NCBI GenBank assembly: GCA_025351345.1
Contig: JANXWB010000031.1
Span: 1-64,000, forward strand
Source: Synechococcales cyanobacterium GL140_1_metabat_312
GTDB taxonomy: Bacteria; Cyanobacteriota; Cyanobacteriia; Leptolyngbyales; Leptolyngbyaceae
Reading direction: 5' to 3'
Length of the DNA stretch: 64,000 bases
A program made the position numbers and the translations under genes. Each line of letters begins with the position of its first letter. Position 1 is the first letter of the stretch. The notes below the pieces were generated by a model, which was given only the letters and a program-made list of their open reading frames with translations, ran no database searches and was not told the DNA's origin. Below are positions 31,902-37,659 of the stretch, in pieces.

Positions 31902-32074
31902 TTTTTGAAATAGGTGAAACAAGTCATTTTCTCCAAAATTCTGAGAAATCCTAGGTAAACCCATCTAGATATGGTTAATGCACATTAATTATAAATCGGA
32001 TAGAGTTATAGGTATCTAGCCATGGTTTTAGTTTGTCTGCATTGATACTATTAGGGTGCGGGGACATTCCAAGA

Positions 32075-33496
32075 GTGAAAAAGAGTTTATCGGACCACGA
32101 GCTTCAAGTTGCTCAGCAAACAATCTATCAGTCTCTACTAGAAATCGTACACAAGTGGCCTCCTGAAGAGGTGCTACTTGAGTTTAAGCGGTTGTTTTTA
32201 TGCCATGGTGATTCTGTAAATACGTCAGCGTTGAATGCGCTCTATGAAATTATTTTTCATGACAATGAAGTGGAGTTTCGCAACACTATCAAGCGTGCTT
32301 GTTATATTCTGGTTAACAATTGGGATGCAAATCGTCGTCATAAGCCGATTCAGGATTTAATTGCAGCGTTTCAAGATGAGAATTTACCCCGATCGACTAT
32401 TTCTCCGACATTAACTCGGTTACGGATTTGGATCCGGAATTTTCAGCAGAGTCAGGACTATAGCGATCTGAAGCTTTTTGCAGATCGCTATAATGCCAGT
32501 GAGTCTGGTGAGACGTTGAATGATGGTCCTTGGGTGCGGCGCTATACGTCCTATTTGTTGGTGCCGCAGTATGCCGATACGCGAAATTCGATCGAGCAAC
32601 GGGAAGCAGCACGATCAATGGCTCAGAAGTTAAGAGAGAAATTTAAGTTTGATTTGGCGATGTATGTAGCTAGGTCGCAGTCACTGTCAGAGGATAATCC
32701 GCCTTTGAAGAATCCGACGGCGCTGGGGGATGATACGTTGCGCTTGATTAAGATGATTGTGGCGAAACGTGGAACCTATAGCTATGGTAATTTGGCAAAT
32801 ATTTTTCTCAATCAGATTCAATCTCTGACTTATATCGAATTTAAGCGCAGTTTACAAAACTATTTGGTTTTTTCGGTGGAAACGTCGAATTTTTCCCATG
32901 CACTTCAGACTCGGATGGCGGATAAGTTGAATACATTGTATGTAGGACATCATGATGATGTAGTGACTCCTGCTCTGATTTTGCGGACTAGTAATCGGAT
33001 GATTGAGTTTTTGACGACGGAAAACCAGAAGGAGCCATCGTCGTTGTTTGTGTTGTTGTTGTCGCAGGGAAACCCGATGACGCTGGTGGTGACGTTGTTG
33101 AAGTTAATGTTAGTGTCGAAGAATTCACGTACCCATTTAGAGGCGCGGATTGCAGATTTGCTGCGATATTATCAGGAGATCCCGGAGCAAGATTGCCGTT
33201 GGGTTGTGAATTTTCTAGAGATTTTCAATGTGACGTTTACAATTTATGGGGACAATGTTCAATACAATTTGATCCGAATGAAAGAGGAACACCATGAGAA
33301 CCAGGAGGATAATTCGATCGTTCAAGATAGTGGTGCAGATGAAGTGAATTTAGATTCTTATCATGTATTCTCGCAATTGCGTTCGCGCCATTTGATTCCT
33401 GAAGAAGTGCTGGAGATGCTTGAGCCTGAAGTGCTTGGGCCTGAAGTGCTACCGTTGTCAGAGGATTCTATCGATCGTGAAGCATTTTCATTTTAG
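32075..33496 (+). CDS. Conserved helical protein of unknown function
   Basis: A large, all-helical soluble protein of about 473 residues from GTG 32075. The frame is open to a TTG at 32033, but no ATG exists near the 5' end, so the start is uncertain. The core reads LLEIVHKWPPEEVLLEFKRLF and WDANRRHKPIQDLIAAF, which I recall from a conserved cyanobacterial hypothetical family. The C-terminus is acidic and contains a short repeat (EPEVLGPEVL). Its stop overlaps by a few bases the stranded larC end described below, so it was originally convergent with larC. Function unknown. Confidence 0.7.
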   Translation: MKKSLSDHELQVAQQTIYQSLLEIVHKWPPEEVLLEFKRLFLCHGDSVNTSALNALYEIIFHDNEVEFRNTIKRACYILVNNWDANRRHKPIQDLIAAFQDENLPRSTISPTLTRLRIWIRNFQQSQDYSDLKLFADRYNASESGETLNDGPWVRRYTSYLLVPQYADTRNSIEQREAARSMAQKLREKFKFDLAMYVARSQSLSEDNPPLKNPTALGDDTLRLIKMIVAKRGTYSYGNLANIFLNQIQSLTYIEFKRSLQNYLVFSVETSNFSHALQTRMADKLNTLYVGHHDDVVTPALILRTSNRMIEFLTTENQKEPSSLFVLLLSQGNPMTLVVTLLKLMLVSKNSRTHLEARIADLLRYYQEIPEQDCRWVVNFLEIFNVTFTIYGDNVQYNLIRMKEEHHENQEDNSIVQDSGADEVNLDSYHVFSQLRSRHLIPEEVLEMLEPEVLGPEVLPLSEDSIDREAFSF

Positions 33497-33502
33497 AGTT
33501 TG

Positions 33503-33562
33503 TTGTCGGATGGCCTGTCGCTGAATTTCTTTAAGGGGGCGATCCGTAGGACGGGCGATTGT
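33503..33562 (-). repeat. Stranded copy of the larC 3' end (direct repeat A)
   Basis: The first 42 bases (33503-33544) are identical to 35482-35523, inside the 3' end of larC, and the next 18 differ at 4 positions, so 56 of 60 match. Read on the minus strand it still encodes a larC-like C-terminal peptide (RPLKEIQRQAIRQ), with a stop at 33488-33490 that overlaps the stop of the upstream gene. It starts 12 bases beyond the stop codon of the Toprim-like gene. It is best read as the original larC end, displaced by the inserted module. Confidence 0.85.
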
Positions 33563-33574
33563 AGAATTTTTGTT

Positions 33575-34333
33575 TTAGATATTAAAACTGTCAATATATC
33601 TTTTGGTGATGTGGCTGGTCGCAATGAGGTTTTTGGTAAACGTTCCATAGCCGACGGGACATCGAGTTTTGAGCATTTCTAGATTTAGTTGTTCTGCGAT
33701 CGCCCATCGAATTTTCATCTGACGTTTATTGATGCTGTTTTCTTCAATTAGATAATCAGAGTTTTCGATCGCATCATTTAGGATTAATTTAGTTTCAGTC
33801 AGATTTTCTATATCTTCTATTGGATTTATTTTGAGATTAAAACATTTAAAAAGAGTCTCAGTATCTGCGATTAACCAAGTTTCGGCATCACGAATAGCCA
33901 GTCCAGTAAGGCTACGATCGCCAACTTCATTTTCATTATGATCTAAATGATTTTCTTGAATAATTCCAAGTGCAGTTTTGATTTTTTGATCGCGGTCTTT
34001 TAGGAGATCATCTGCATCTACAACCAAAACAATCATATCGATCTCATGAGGTTTCCAAACAGTGACGACTTGACGAAGATATTTTGATTCTAGAATAGTG
34101 TACCCATTACGAACTTTGCCTGTGCTACGTTCACGAATAGTTGGATGACGTTGGATAAATTCACAGTCGGGTAAGCCTGCTGCTTTCAATTCTCTACGAA
34201 TGAGCTTATGCAACGCACCTTCTTGGGAACGATCGATAACTTTGCCGCCCTCTTCGGGTTTGACGTAGGGAATACTGGCTCCGAGTTCTGTCTTTCCCTC
34301 AGCAATAAGTCCAATTCGGATAGGGCGCGTCAT
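33575..34333 (-). CDS. Toprim/DUF4276-like putative nuclease, second gene of a defence pair
   Basis: A 252-residue soluble protein. The N-terminus GLIAEGKTE (Glu12) and the VVDADD motif (Asp106, Asp108, Asp109) are the acidic residues of a Toprim-like catalytic site; AIRDAETWLIAD (about 146-157) is a hallmark of DUF4276 proteins. Family members accompany AAA/OLD-type ATPases and are thought to cleave nucleic acid when an invader is sensed. Here the start overlaps the ATPase stop by four bases (ATGA), so the two are translationally coupled. The gene ends 12 bases before the stranded larC end. Nuclease activity is inferred. Confidence 0.75.
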   Translation of the reverse strand: MTRPIRIGLIAEGKTELGASIPYVKPEEGGKVIDRSQEGALHKLIRRELKAAGLPDCEFIQRHPTIRERSTGKVRNGYTILESKYLRQVVTVWKPHEIDMIVLVVDADDLLKDRDQKIKTALGIIQENHLDHNENEVGDRSLTGLAIRDAETWLIADTETLFKCFNLKINPIEDIENLTETKLILNDAIENSDYLIEENSINKRQMKIRWAIAEQLNLEMLKTRCPVGYGTFTKNLIATSHITKRYIDSFNI

Positions 34334-35436
34334 ACAGGATTTCCTCCGAAGACATTGGTAAACCAGAGTTCTCCAAGTGCATTATCATAAGCATCTAGTG
34401 AATTTTGGAACGCTTTGGATTCGATCGGTAAATTATGAACTTGAGTTTTGCCTTCCTTGTCTAATTCAACGGCACGAACTTGTTTAGGTTCTACATAATT
34501 TAATAGAACAGGTGAATGGGTTGTGATTAAAACTTGAACAGGTTTACCATTGATTCCTTCCGTTGAAATCATTTTTAAAAGTTCCATCATTTTATGCAAA
34601 AGCCAAGGATGAACACCATTTTCGACTTCTTCAAAGCAAAGAATGCTGGGCGTTTCAATTTGATAGATTGCAGTTAGGAAGGCAAGAATTCTGAGTGTAC
34701 CATCGGAAACTTCAGAGGCAGGAATTCGGTGATCTGAATAACGATCGACTAAATTAAGAAGAAAATCTTTATTTTTGCTTCTTTCTAAAGAAACCCTACT
34801 TATATTTGGAACAAGTTCAGAGAGCCGTTTTTCTAGCTCATCGAATCGTTGTCTATTATCGAGCATCAAATCTCCTAAAGCCTCTGCAATCCCTTTTCCA
34901 GATCTTCCCATTCCTTGATTAGATGACGTTGATTCATTTATGGAGTTTGGCGAAAAATCATAGACTCTTACGCTTTTCAAAGCAATATTTAAATCTGAAT
35001 TCACATAAGAGTTCTGAAGAAGAAATTCTCTAACTTCACCAGTATGACTTCTAGCATCTATAGATTTTCCTAAATGATTGCCTATAATAATTGATCTATG
35101 ATCATAGTTGAATCTAATCTGCAAACCGGATACTTGATCAGAAGTATCAGTATTTTCAAATTCAAAAGCCAAGAAGTCAGTTTTCCCTGCCCAAAAAAGG
35201 GCTTCGATCGGGCTATTCTTTCCAAGAAATTGAATGGTCGAACCTAATACTGTAGAGGTGGAAACAATGTTCTCTCTTTCAATGATTTCTCTGAGGGTAT
35301 TAGAAGCAATCGCTAACGCCTCACAAACATTTGATTTTCCAGATCCGTTTGGTCCAATAAATACTGTCAATGGTTCTAAATCAATGTCAACCTTAAACAA
35401 GCTCTTGTAATGTTCAACGGTCAATTTCGACAACAT
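34330..35436 (-). CDS. AAA/OLD-like ATPase, first gene of a defence pair
   Basis: A 368-residue SMC/ABC-type ATPase. Walker A GPNGSGKSN (28-36), signature-like SDGTLR (244-249), Walker B ILCFEE (265-270) and the switch His in ITTHSP (His307) are complete. The middle region between the ATP motifs is an insert without known fold. The C-terminus LGELWFTNVFGG is typical of ATPases paired with DUF4276 proteins. By analogy with PARIS, AbiL/RloA-RloB and OLD-type pairs it would sense an invader and release or activate the nuclease. It starts 28 bases after the larC stop, on the same strand. Confidence 0.85.
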   Translation of the reverse strand: MLSKLTVEHYKSLFKVDIDLEPLTVFIGPNGSGKSNVCEALAIASNTLREIIERENIVSTSTVLGSTIQFLGKNSPIEALFWAGKTDFLAFEFENTDTSDQVSGLQIRFNYDHRSIIIGNHLGKSIDARSHTGEVREFLLQNSYVNSDLNIALKSVRVYDFSPNSINESTSSNQGMGRSGKGIAEALGDLMLDNRQRFDELEKRLSELVPNISRVSLERSKNKDFLLNLVDRYSDHRIPASEVSDGTLRILAFLTAIYQIETPSILCFEEVENGVHPWLLHKMMELLKMISTEGINGKPVQVLITTHSPVLLNYVEPKQVRAVELDKEGKTQVHNLPIESKAFQNSLDAYDNALGELWFTNVFGGNPV

Positions 35437-35463
35437 ACGTTTCTCCCCATTAATTGTCAGGTC

Positions 35464-36768
35464 TTATTTTACAAGAAGATATTGTCGGATGGCCTGTCGC
35501 TGAATTTCTTTAAGGGGGCGATCGGTATGACGGGCAATCGTGGCACAGTCTTCGTACTCAGGTTGAATGTTATATACTTTACCGTTTCGTTCGGCGACTT
35601 TCAATTTAACGGGGTGGCCTTGAATTTGGATAGTTTCAAATCTACGAGTTAAAACCGATCGTTCCTGCAAACTTCGCCGAATGCCGATCGTTGTCGTTTC
35701 TTCAAATAAAATCTGTTCCAACCGATCGAGTTCTTCTGGTTTGCAAATGACGCTAATCAATGTTGCGGGACGGGACTTTTTCATGCCGATCGCCGTTGTA
35801 AATACATCCAGGGCACCATGATTGAGAAGCTTTTCAGTGGTATAGGCGATCGTTTGAGGTGAAAGATCGTCGATTTGGGTTTCGAGATGGGCAACGGTTT
35901 CAAGGTGTTCAGCTTCATGATGATGCTCCTCTTCATGGGAATGGTCTGAGTGACTATGTGAGTGACTATGAGCATGGCTGTGGGGTTGAATGGCAGATTT
36001 TGCATGAGTATGGGTACCGTAAGATTCACCGATCCAGAGGCGTAAAATATTGGGAATGGTGAGTTCCTGAGTGCCTGCGCCGAGGGCGATTTTTTGAATG
36101 ATCATTTCTGGCGGATGGCCGAAGTGGTGGGCAAGGGTTGTAACGATCGCAGCTCCCGTGGGCGTGACGAGTTCGCGATCGATGCGATTATAAAATACAG
36201 GGACATTTGCTTTTTCAAATAGTTTTAAGACGGCTGGAACCGGGACTGGAAGCCGACCATGGGCAGCCCAAATGGTCCCGCCGCCAGTAGGTAATGCAGA
36301 ACAATAGAAATGTTCAATTTTTAACCAATCCATTCCTAAACAAGTGCCGACAATATCTACGATCGCATCAACTGCTCCAACTTCATGGAAGAAGACTTGT
36401 TCTGCGGGTATGCCATGGACGGCTCCTTCGGCGATTGCAAGGTTCCGAAAGACTTCTAAACTCCATTTTTCAGCGCGATCAGGTAAGGTTGCACCAAGGA
36501 TCATCTTTTCGATTTCAGGCAATGTTCGGGAATGGGTATGGTCGTGGGAATGGGTATGGTCGGGTTGATTAACTAGGGTAACGATCGCTTTTGTGGCTTG
36601 TTGACCGTTATGAATCATTTGTTTTGAGCTGAGTTCGTATTCTTGATTGATACCGAGCCGATCGAGATGTTGGGTTAAATATTCAATGGGTACGCCTGCA
36701 TCAATTAAGGCACCTAAACACATATCGCCCGAAACGCCTGTGGGACAATCAAAATAAGCAACTTTCAT
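35464..36768 (-). CDS. larC: Nickel insertion protein LarC (DUF111)
   Basis: LarC puts nickel into the pincer cofactor of lactate racemase and relatives; 434 residues from the ATG at 36768 (the frame opens seven codons earlier). The N-terminal domain starts VAYFDCPTGVSGDM and shows HGIPAEQVFFHEVGAVDAIVDI. Two His-rich stretches stand out: HTHSHDHTHS at about 71-80 and a long H-x-H run at about 253-289, likely nickel-binding linkers. In lactobacilli larC needs a programmed frameshift, while here it is one open frame. No larA or larB is nearby. Its last codons form repeat B. Confidence 0.88.
   Translation of the reverse strand: MKVAYFDCPTGVSGDMCLGALIDAGVPIEYLTQHLDRLGINQEYELSSKQMIHNGQQATKAIVTLVNQPDHTHSHDHTHSRTLPEIEKMILGATLPDRAEKWSLEVFRNLAIAEGAVHGIPAEQVFFHEVGAVDAIVDIVGTCLGMDWLKIEHFYCSALPTGGGTIWAAHGRLPVPVPAVLKLFEKANVPVFYNRIDRELVTPTGAAIVTTLAHHFGHPPEMIIQKIALGAGTQELTIPNILRLWIGESYGTHTHAKSAIQPHSHAHSHSHSHSDHSHEEEHHHEAEHLETVAHLETQIDDLSPQTIAYTTEKLLNHGALDVFTTAIGMKKSRPATLISVICKPEELDRLEQILFEETTTIGIRRSLQERSVLTRRFETIQIQGHPVKLKVAERNGKVYNIQPEYEDCATIARHTDRPLKEIQRQAIRQYLLVK
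35482..35541 (-). repeat. Direct repeat B, 3' end of larC
   Basis: The part of larC (codons for RPLKEIQRQAIRQ and the bases before them) that matches repeat A. It belongs to the working gene, so element insertion left larC complete. 42 of 42 bases are identical over the core; four differences occur in the last 18. Confidence 0.85.
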
Positions 36769-36853
36769 GGTTTTTGTGAATGCGATCATTGGATCTAAGT
36801 TTAAATCAATATCAACTTCTTTTAAATTAGTATCAGTTTCTACGTGTTTTTGT

Positions 36854-36870: not shown

Positions 36871-37013
36871 ATTTGAGTATTGGCGCGGGCGGGATGTGAT
36901 GATGATTTGGATGCATTAGATGGGATATTGGGATGAGCGATCGGGGATTTAGTGGGATTGCTGGATGATTTGGTATTACGATCGGGGATAGTAATGGTTT
37001 GGAAGTGATGAAT

Positions 37014-37325
37014 ATGAGTTCTGTGATGACGAAGACTGAGATTTTTCAATGTTTGCAAGATCAACAGCAAGTACTCAGAGGCTATGGGGTGAGTCGTTGC
37101 GGGTTGTTTGGTTCTTTTCGGACGGGGCTAGCGACAGAGAGAAGTGATGTGGATATGTTGGTGGTTTTTCAGCCGGAGATGAAGACCTTTAATAATTTTA
37201 TGGATTTGTGTTTCTTTTTGGAGGATTTGTTTGAGCGAAAGGTGGATGTGGTGACTCCGGAGTCGTTGAGTCCGTTTTTTGGGCAGCGAATTTTGGATGA
37301 GGTGGAATATGTCCCGCTCGGCTAA
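37014..37325 (+). CDS. mntA: MntA-type nucleotidyltransferase antitoxin
   Basis: A 103-residue minimal nucleotidyltransferase, ATG 37014, eight bases after a GGAAG ribosome site; several earlier starts are in frame. The catalytic signature GLFGSFRTGLATERSDVDMLV holds the GSF motif and the paired Asp of the polymerase-beta fold. Known MntA antitoxins neutralise HepT by attaching AMP to it. It overlaps hepT by 17 bases, the usual operon layout. The antitoxin looks intact while its toxin is not. Confidence 0.88.
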   Translation: MSSVMTKTEIFQCLQDQQQVLRGYGVSRCGLFGSFRTGLATERSDVDMLVVFQPEMKTFNNFMDLCFFLEDLFERKVDVVTPESLSPFFGQRILDEVEYVPLG

Positions 37326-37659
37326 GAATTATTTACAACATATTTTATTGGAAATGGATTTAATTTTGTAAAATTCAGAGGATTTAACTCAGGATGATTT
37401 CTTTAAGGATGAGCGACTAAAACGGGCTTTTGTTAGAAGTTTGGAGGTGATTGGAGAGGCATCCAAAAATTTGTCTCCTGACTTTAGGGACAATAATCCA
37501 CAGATTCCCTGGAGAAGGATGGCCGGGATGCGAGACAAGTTAATTCATGAGTATTTTGGGGTTGATTATGACGTTATTTGGGATGTAATTAGTTATCAGA
37601 TTCCTATTTTGCGTCATGAGATTAGAATTTTGATTGATGGCTTATTAGATAGGAAGTAA
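37309..37659 (+). pseudogene. hepT: HepT toxin gene (RNase) interrupted by a nonsense codon
   Basis: Starts at ATG 37309 inside the end of mntA. After 20 codons an in-frame TAA stands at 37369-37371, then the same frame continues as a clear HepT to 37659 (NSEDLTQDDFFKDERLK, RAFVRSLEVIGEA). The catalytic RX4HxY motif is intact in RDKLIHEY. HepT is an RNase toxin that MntA blocks. One base change (for example AAA to TAA) would explain the stop. A TTG restart at 37441 would give only the C-terminal 72 residues. The toxin is probably dead, unless read-through occurs. Confidence 0.82.

Follow-up and report, generated by a model that had tools for sequence, protein, structure and literature searches.

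A defence-like gene pair between two copies of the larC 3' end in an Alkalinema-like cyanobacterium: a candidate case of single-crossover capture

The larC locus and its two-gene cassette

In the 64-kb window, by which we mean the whole stretch of DNA analysed, an intact larC gene is separated from the convergent gene of a helical protein by two open reading frames only, both on the minus strand and co-directional with larC. The locus comprises:

32069-33496, plus strand: gene of a helical protein, running convergently towards the ancestral larC end; in relatives it identifies the empty site
33488-33566, minus strand: stranded larC 3' end; its right part leads into the ancestral larC tail and downstream DNA, its left part is diverged
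33575-34333, minus strand: DUF4276/Toprim-like partner gene, 252 aa; weak match to HEC-01B (PADLOC, E 2e-5), conserved AEG and DxD motifs
34330-35436, minus strand: AAA_21/OLD-type ABC ATPase gene; best match PADLOC HEC-01A, E 9e-47; Walker A GPNGSGKS
35464-35481, minus strand: new larC C-terminal tail and stop, unlike the ancestral tail, which survives in the stranded copy and in genome G003
35464-36789, minus strand: larC (nickel insertion protein), intact; Pfam Ni_insertion, E 1e-143
35482-35541, minus strand: working copy of the larC-end repeat, from the repeat alignment

As claimed in an earlier note on this DNA, the ATPase and partner genes are bracketed by two direct copies of a larC 3'-end sequence (33503-33562 and 35482-35541, spacing 1979), which are 93% identical over 60 nt (56/60) and identical over the first 42 nt (42/42). 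This pair is the only direct repeat of at least 30 nt in the window, and the chance expectation for exact 42-mer pairs is about 1e-16. Extending the alignment gives 58/64, the six mismatches all lying on the larC 5' side; the probability of such a one-sided clustering relative to the 42-nt block is about 0.002-0.013. The description of the repeat as a duplicated larC end has to be amended, because the repeat does lie inside larC but stops 18 nt short of the stop codon, leaving the YLLVK codons unrepeated. The stop codon of the stranded frame, a TGA at 33488-33490, overlaps the final codons of the convergent helical protein gene (stop 33494-33496). The exact repeat core has no match in IMG/VR, and a third match in the genome, on contig C45, was rejected as a chance match inside an unrelated gene.

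The ATPase gene starts 28 nt after the larC stop, and is likely co-transcribed with larC; the start of the partner gene overlaps the ATPase stop by ATGA. The ATPase matches the AriA model (E 2e-36) and scores higher with HEC-01A, whereas the partner has no match to AriB and yields instead weak matches to HEC-01B and DUF4276. As to the previous assignment of this second gene to a Toprim/DUF4276-like type, seven of eight homologues match DUF4276 (best 3e-6), and the protein in the window is itself below the threshold (E 0.007). The AEG and DxD motifs, as expected of a Toprim fold, are kept in all partner homologues compared; the fold itself is only predicted, and a structure model of the partner (pLDDT 39) was too poor for comparison.

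The pair probably acts as an OLD/PARIS-like defence module, in which the ATPase would sense infection and license the Toprim-like nuclease. It resembles PARIS and class 4 OLD systems (AriA ATPase plus AriB Toprim nuclease; PMC10568477, PMC12409363) in that the ATPase and the Toprim-type protein are encoded by two distinct genes of the same operon. It differs from PARIS in that its sequence groups with HEC-01, a PADLOC candidate system, and not with AriB, in that its partner matches DUF4276 weakly, and in that its function is a prediction. The likeness to HEC-01 is strong for component A and limited to 19-22 bits for component B; no paper on this candidate system was found in a literature search. 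A further gene pair, of nucleotidyltransferase/HEPN type, lies beside larC (36999-37659), with its HEPN gene broken by an in-frame stop and intact in G003.

The empty site and the distribution of the gene pair

The host genome is Alkalinema-like, and three other species of its genus have been sequenced, one of them an Alkalinema sp. The uninterrupted junction predicted by the earlier note exists in all three, with larC directly convergent with the helical protein gene and without the cassette. The stranded copy continues as CAAACTCTAAAATGAAAATGCTTCACGATCGAT, matching the downstream DNA of genomes G003 and G002, whereas the working tail does not match; in the junction alignment, the last larC codons (YLLVK*) are foreign relative to the congeners. 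Because the stranded copy leads into the ancestral tail and downstream DNA while the working larC has a different tail, these alignments indicate that the cassette entered at the larC end and that the last larC codons come from the cassette side. The insertion at the larC 3' end is thus real, with the end of the gene now supplied from the cassette side, as had been proposed. None of the other 41 family genomes contains a match to the partner gene and, hence, the cassette is a recent gain.

Across the class, the partner was matched in 13 of 390 genomes, host included, with eight others at 53-66% identity. In those eight genomes the partner always follows the ATPase, a gene order that is fixed in nine cyanobacteria when the host is counted. 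The pair lies behind cobS in four Pseudanabaena genomes and in front of gpmI in another family, in both cases without gene-end duplications, and none of the long repeats around the pair at other loci resembles a gene end; partner relatives were found neither in plasmids and phages nor in IMG/VR. These comparisons show that the pair is mobile over evolutionary time, though its movement does not leave a duplicated gene end in every case. The same placements speak against the earlier interpretation of the larC repeats as attL and attR.

The DNA behind cobS in Pseudanabaena (loci L076-L100) is highly variable between species, with several occupants that include the ATPase-DUF4276 pair. The sequence CTTGTAAAATAA, which precedes the ATPase gene in both the host and Pseudanabaena, is not a cassette boundary; it belongs to the native cobS end, since it is also present at L091, which has no cassette.

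Routes into the larC end

The best explanation, and one that we hold to be somewhat probable, is the capture of a donor larC end together with the cassette by a homologous single crossover. DNA from a related cyanobacterium would carry its own larC 3' end followed by the AAA-DUF4276 pair and, after entry, the donor molecule would become circular, or act as if circular. One homologous crossover would fall in the short larC stretch, inside the block of 42 identical nt, and its product would be the host larC 5' part, the donor larC tail, the cassette, a truncated donor larC piece and the old larC tail of the host. The donor tail would supply the stop codon, with larC staying functional, and the cassette, 28 nt behind larC, would probably use its transcript.

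The one-sided differences, along with the differing tails on the other side, fit a crossover within the 42-nt block, both copies being hybrids. Likewise, the larC copies show the polarity expected of a capture, with a working end apparently of donor origin and a native stranded end. A sliding comparison along larC revealed no clear recombination tract upstream of the 42-nt block, and a donor genome with larC followed by the gene pair was not found among the 41 family and 390 class genomes searched. A length of 42-64 nt is short for RecA-type recombination. Moreover, the congeners differ by roughly 20-28% across the region of the perfect 42-nt block, and such a block amid this divergence would also fit an att core, which counts against the capture.

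An experimental precedent comes from E. coli: among 60 rare integrants of a fragment with one-sided homology, 56 had part of the lacZ end duplicated, over 109-950 bp in the 14 that were sequenced. They were attributed to a molecule that had recircularised with shortened homology and integrated through a single crossover (PMC3240628). Both these conjugation/HFIR integrants and the larC locus show a cargo with the intact gene end on one side and a truncated version of it on the other, the duplication being of arbitrary length and no recombinase being present; they differ in that the E. coli case is a laboratory lacZ construct, whereas the larC case is natural, has only 42-64 nt of homology and carries a defence-like pair.

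Homology-facilitated illegitimate recombination of a linear fragment, with a crossover in larC and end-joining to the host larC tail, is a close relative of the single-crossover capture. It leaves a stranded recipient 3' end, as in the proposal made for T6SS immunity arrays of Vibrio cholerae (PMC5361080), and is compatible with the chlH case described below. We nevertheless consider it improbable, in that recipient DNA is lost in classical events and outcomes of the additive type were mostly single crossovers (PMC3240628), and in that it does not by itself explain the one-sided clustering of differences.

Two other explanations fare worse. In a long target-site duplication, a staggered break with an overhang of about 60 nt would have received a cassette devoid of larC sequence, and the copies would have drifted later. 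This agrees with the fact that, judged against the congeners, the unselected copy holds the derived state at three of the four positions that differ within the 60-nt block, but it is very improbable, because the differences are all clustered at one end and the working tail resembles, if weakly, a larC tail (L-x-K-stop); we know of no bacterial element making target duplications of about 60 nt, which also counts against it. An assembly artefact is even harder to believe: the draft consists of 100 contigs and assembly with short k-mers could be misled by a repeat of 42 nt, but both junctions lie within one 75 kb contig, and the two copies are distinct, each with private substitutions and private flanks.

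The main competitor of the single-crossover capture is site-specific integration, close to what the earlier note had in mind. A recombinase-less minimal element (CIME- or satellite-like), with an attP mimicking the larC 3' end, would have been integrated by a tyrosine integrase that acted in trans or was lost. The geometry is exactly that of attL-cargo-attR at a gene 3' end, with the gene restored: the insert is bounded by direct repeats, its site is empty in relatives, and the 42-nt identical core has diverged arms. The cassette is also very compact, and the host genome contains six tyrosine-recombinase-type matches. The insert resembles CIMEs and other integrase-less att-bounded elements in having attL/attR-like repeats and no recombinase genes. 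However, no integrase lies in or adjoining the cassette, whose two open reading frames bear out the earlier statement on this point, and, unlike with CIMEs, no related element bearing one was found at the same site in 40 other larC loci of the family.

Surveys of larC ends are similarly unfavourable to the attachment-site reading. A second larC end was found in none of those 40 loci, of which up to 19 kb downstream were read (a few ended early at contig ends), and the core does not recur in them. Screening the whole class with a larC C-terminus model, an approach of low power for short copies, retrieved two further cases, both in Pseudanabaena. The first (G303, L216:6576-14286) contains a 561-nt, 95% identical copy of the larC 3' half, 7 kb downstream, and provides the single instance of the other cargo between larC-end repeats that had been anticipated: a helicase-methyltransferase gene, a gene for 378 aa, and YoeB/RelB-type toxin and antitoxin genes. 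Its duplication has other boundaries, so the host core is not reused. The second (G197), at a contig break and with no visible cargo, is a tandem duplication of about 255 nt that comprises the larC end and a further stretch of about 130 nt. The duplications thus differ in length (about 60, 127 and 561 nt), and this speaks against a single att core. Additionally, the larC C-terminus shows little conservation beyond the genus and would be a poor target for a mobile element, and other similar-looking insertions use unrelated sequences and lengths. A literature search for larC as an attachment site yielded unrelated matches and no description. Site-specific integration is therefore rather unlikely, and a one-off homologous capture is more economical than an integrating element. 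Our best reading is that the larC cassette represents a known kind of recombination event, and not a new class of integrating element.

Duplicated gene ends at other loci

A repeat survey of about 1.35 Mb revealed two or three cases of gene 3'-end duplication, from which roughly one such case would be expected among 390 larC loci; of the host genome, about 740 kb was surveyed for other repeats. The three larC-end duplications, in the host, G303 and G197, hint at some preference, though by our estimate not clearly above background.

On host contig C13 (L108:5060-7349), an acyltransferase gene has the true 3' end of a thioredoxin-like gene on one side and a decayed repeat of that end on the other; the G002 locus lacks the acyltransferase. 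Adjoining this acyltransferase is a gene (389 aa) of tyrosine-recombinase-like type, which is also present in G002 without it.

Likewise, in G018 (L173:13089-14003), a genome of the same family, a 107-nt copy of the chlH 3' end including the terminator is separated from the gene by two small genes, one of 74 aa and one retropepsin-like. The stranded chlH end is that of the sister species G017 (TAG, TTCCGA), whereas the working end has its intergenic DNA and first cargo gene in common with G022. The latter species carries this cargo gene natively, in truncated form, behind a chlH that has no stranded end. G022 is thus a genome with the anchor gene followed by the first cargo gene, of the kind not found for larC. 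This pattern would be expected if the cargo arrived with the donor's version of the anchor gene end, although the evidence from chlH is only moderate because there are few informative sites.

Gene-end duplications of variable length hence occur at unrelated genes (the thioredoxin-like gene and chlH) and at the larC of G303, as the single-crossover capture predicts, and the presence of this structure at other gene ends, and at some 5' ends, weakens the attL/attR reading further. A broader idea, which we regard as doubtful, is that cyanobacterial gene 3' ends, larC included, might be a general, repeated landing place for integrase-free defence and accessory cassettes, with donor gene-end copies serving as disposable homology arms that leave the anchor gene whole. 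If so, cargo would move by ordinary recombination while the anchor gene is kept whole. Every congener having an empty site, the larC locus illustrates cleanly how, in nature, a defence-like pair reaches a new genome without a mobility gene. Should gene-end duplications be as common as our small survey suggests, they would offer a simple scar for spotting recently captured cassettes that have no transposase or integrase.

Among the 5' ends, host contig C10 (L140:16243-17209) contains a TumE toxin gene and a small partner between two 162-nt copies of sequence from an LRR-GTPase gene, namely its 5' end and promoter.
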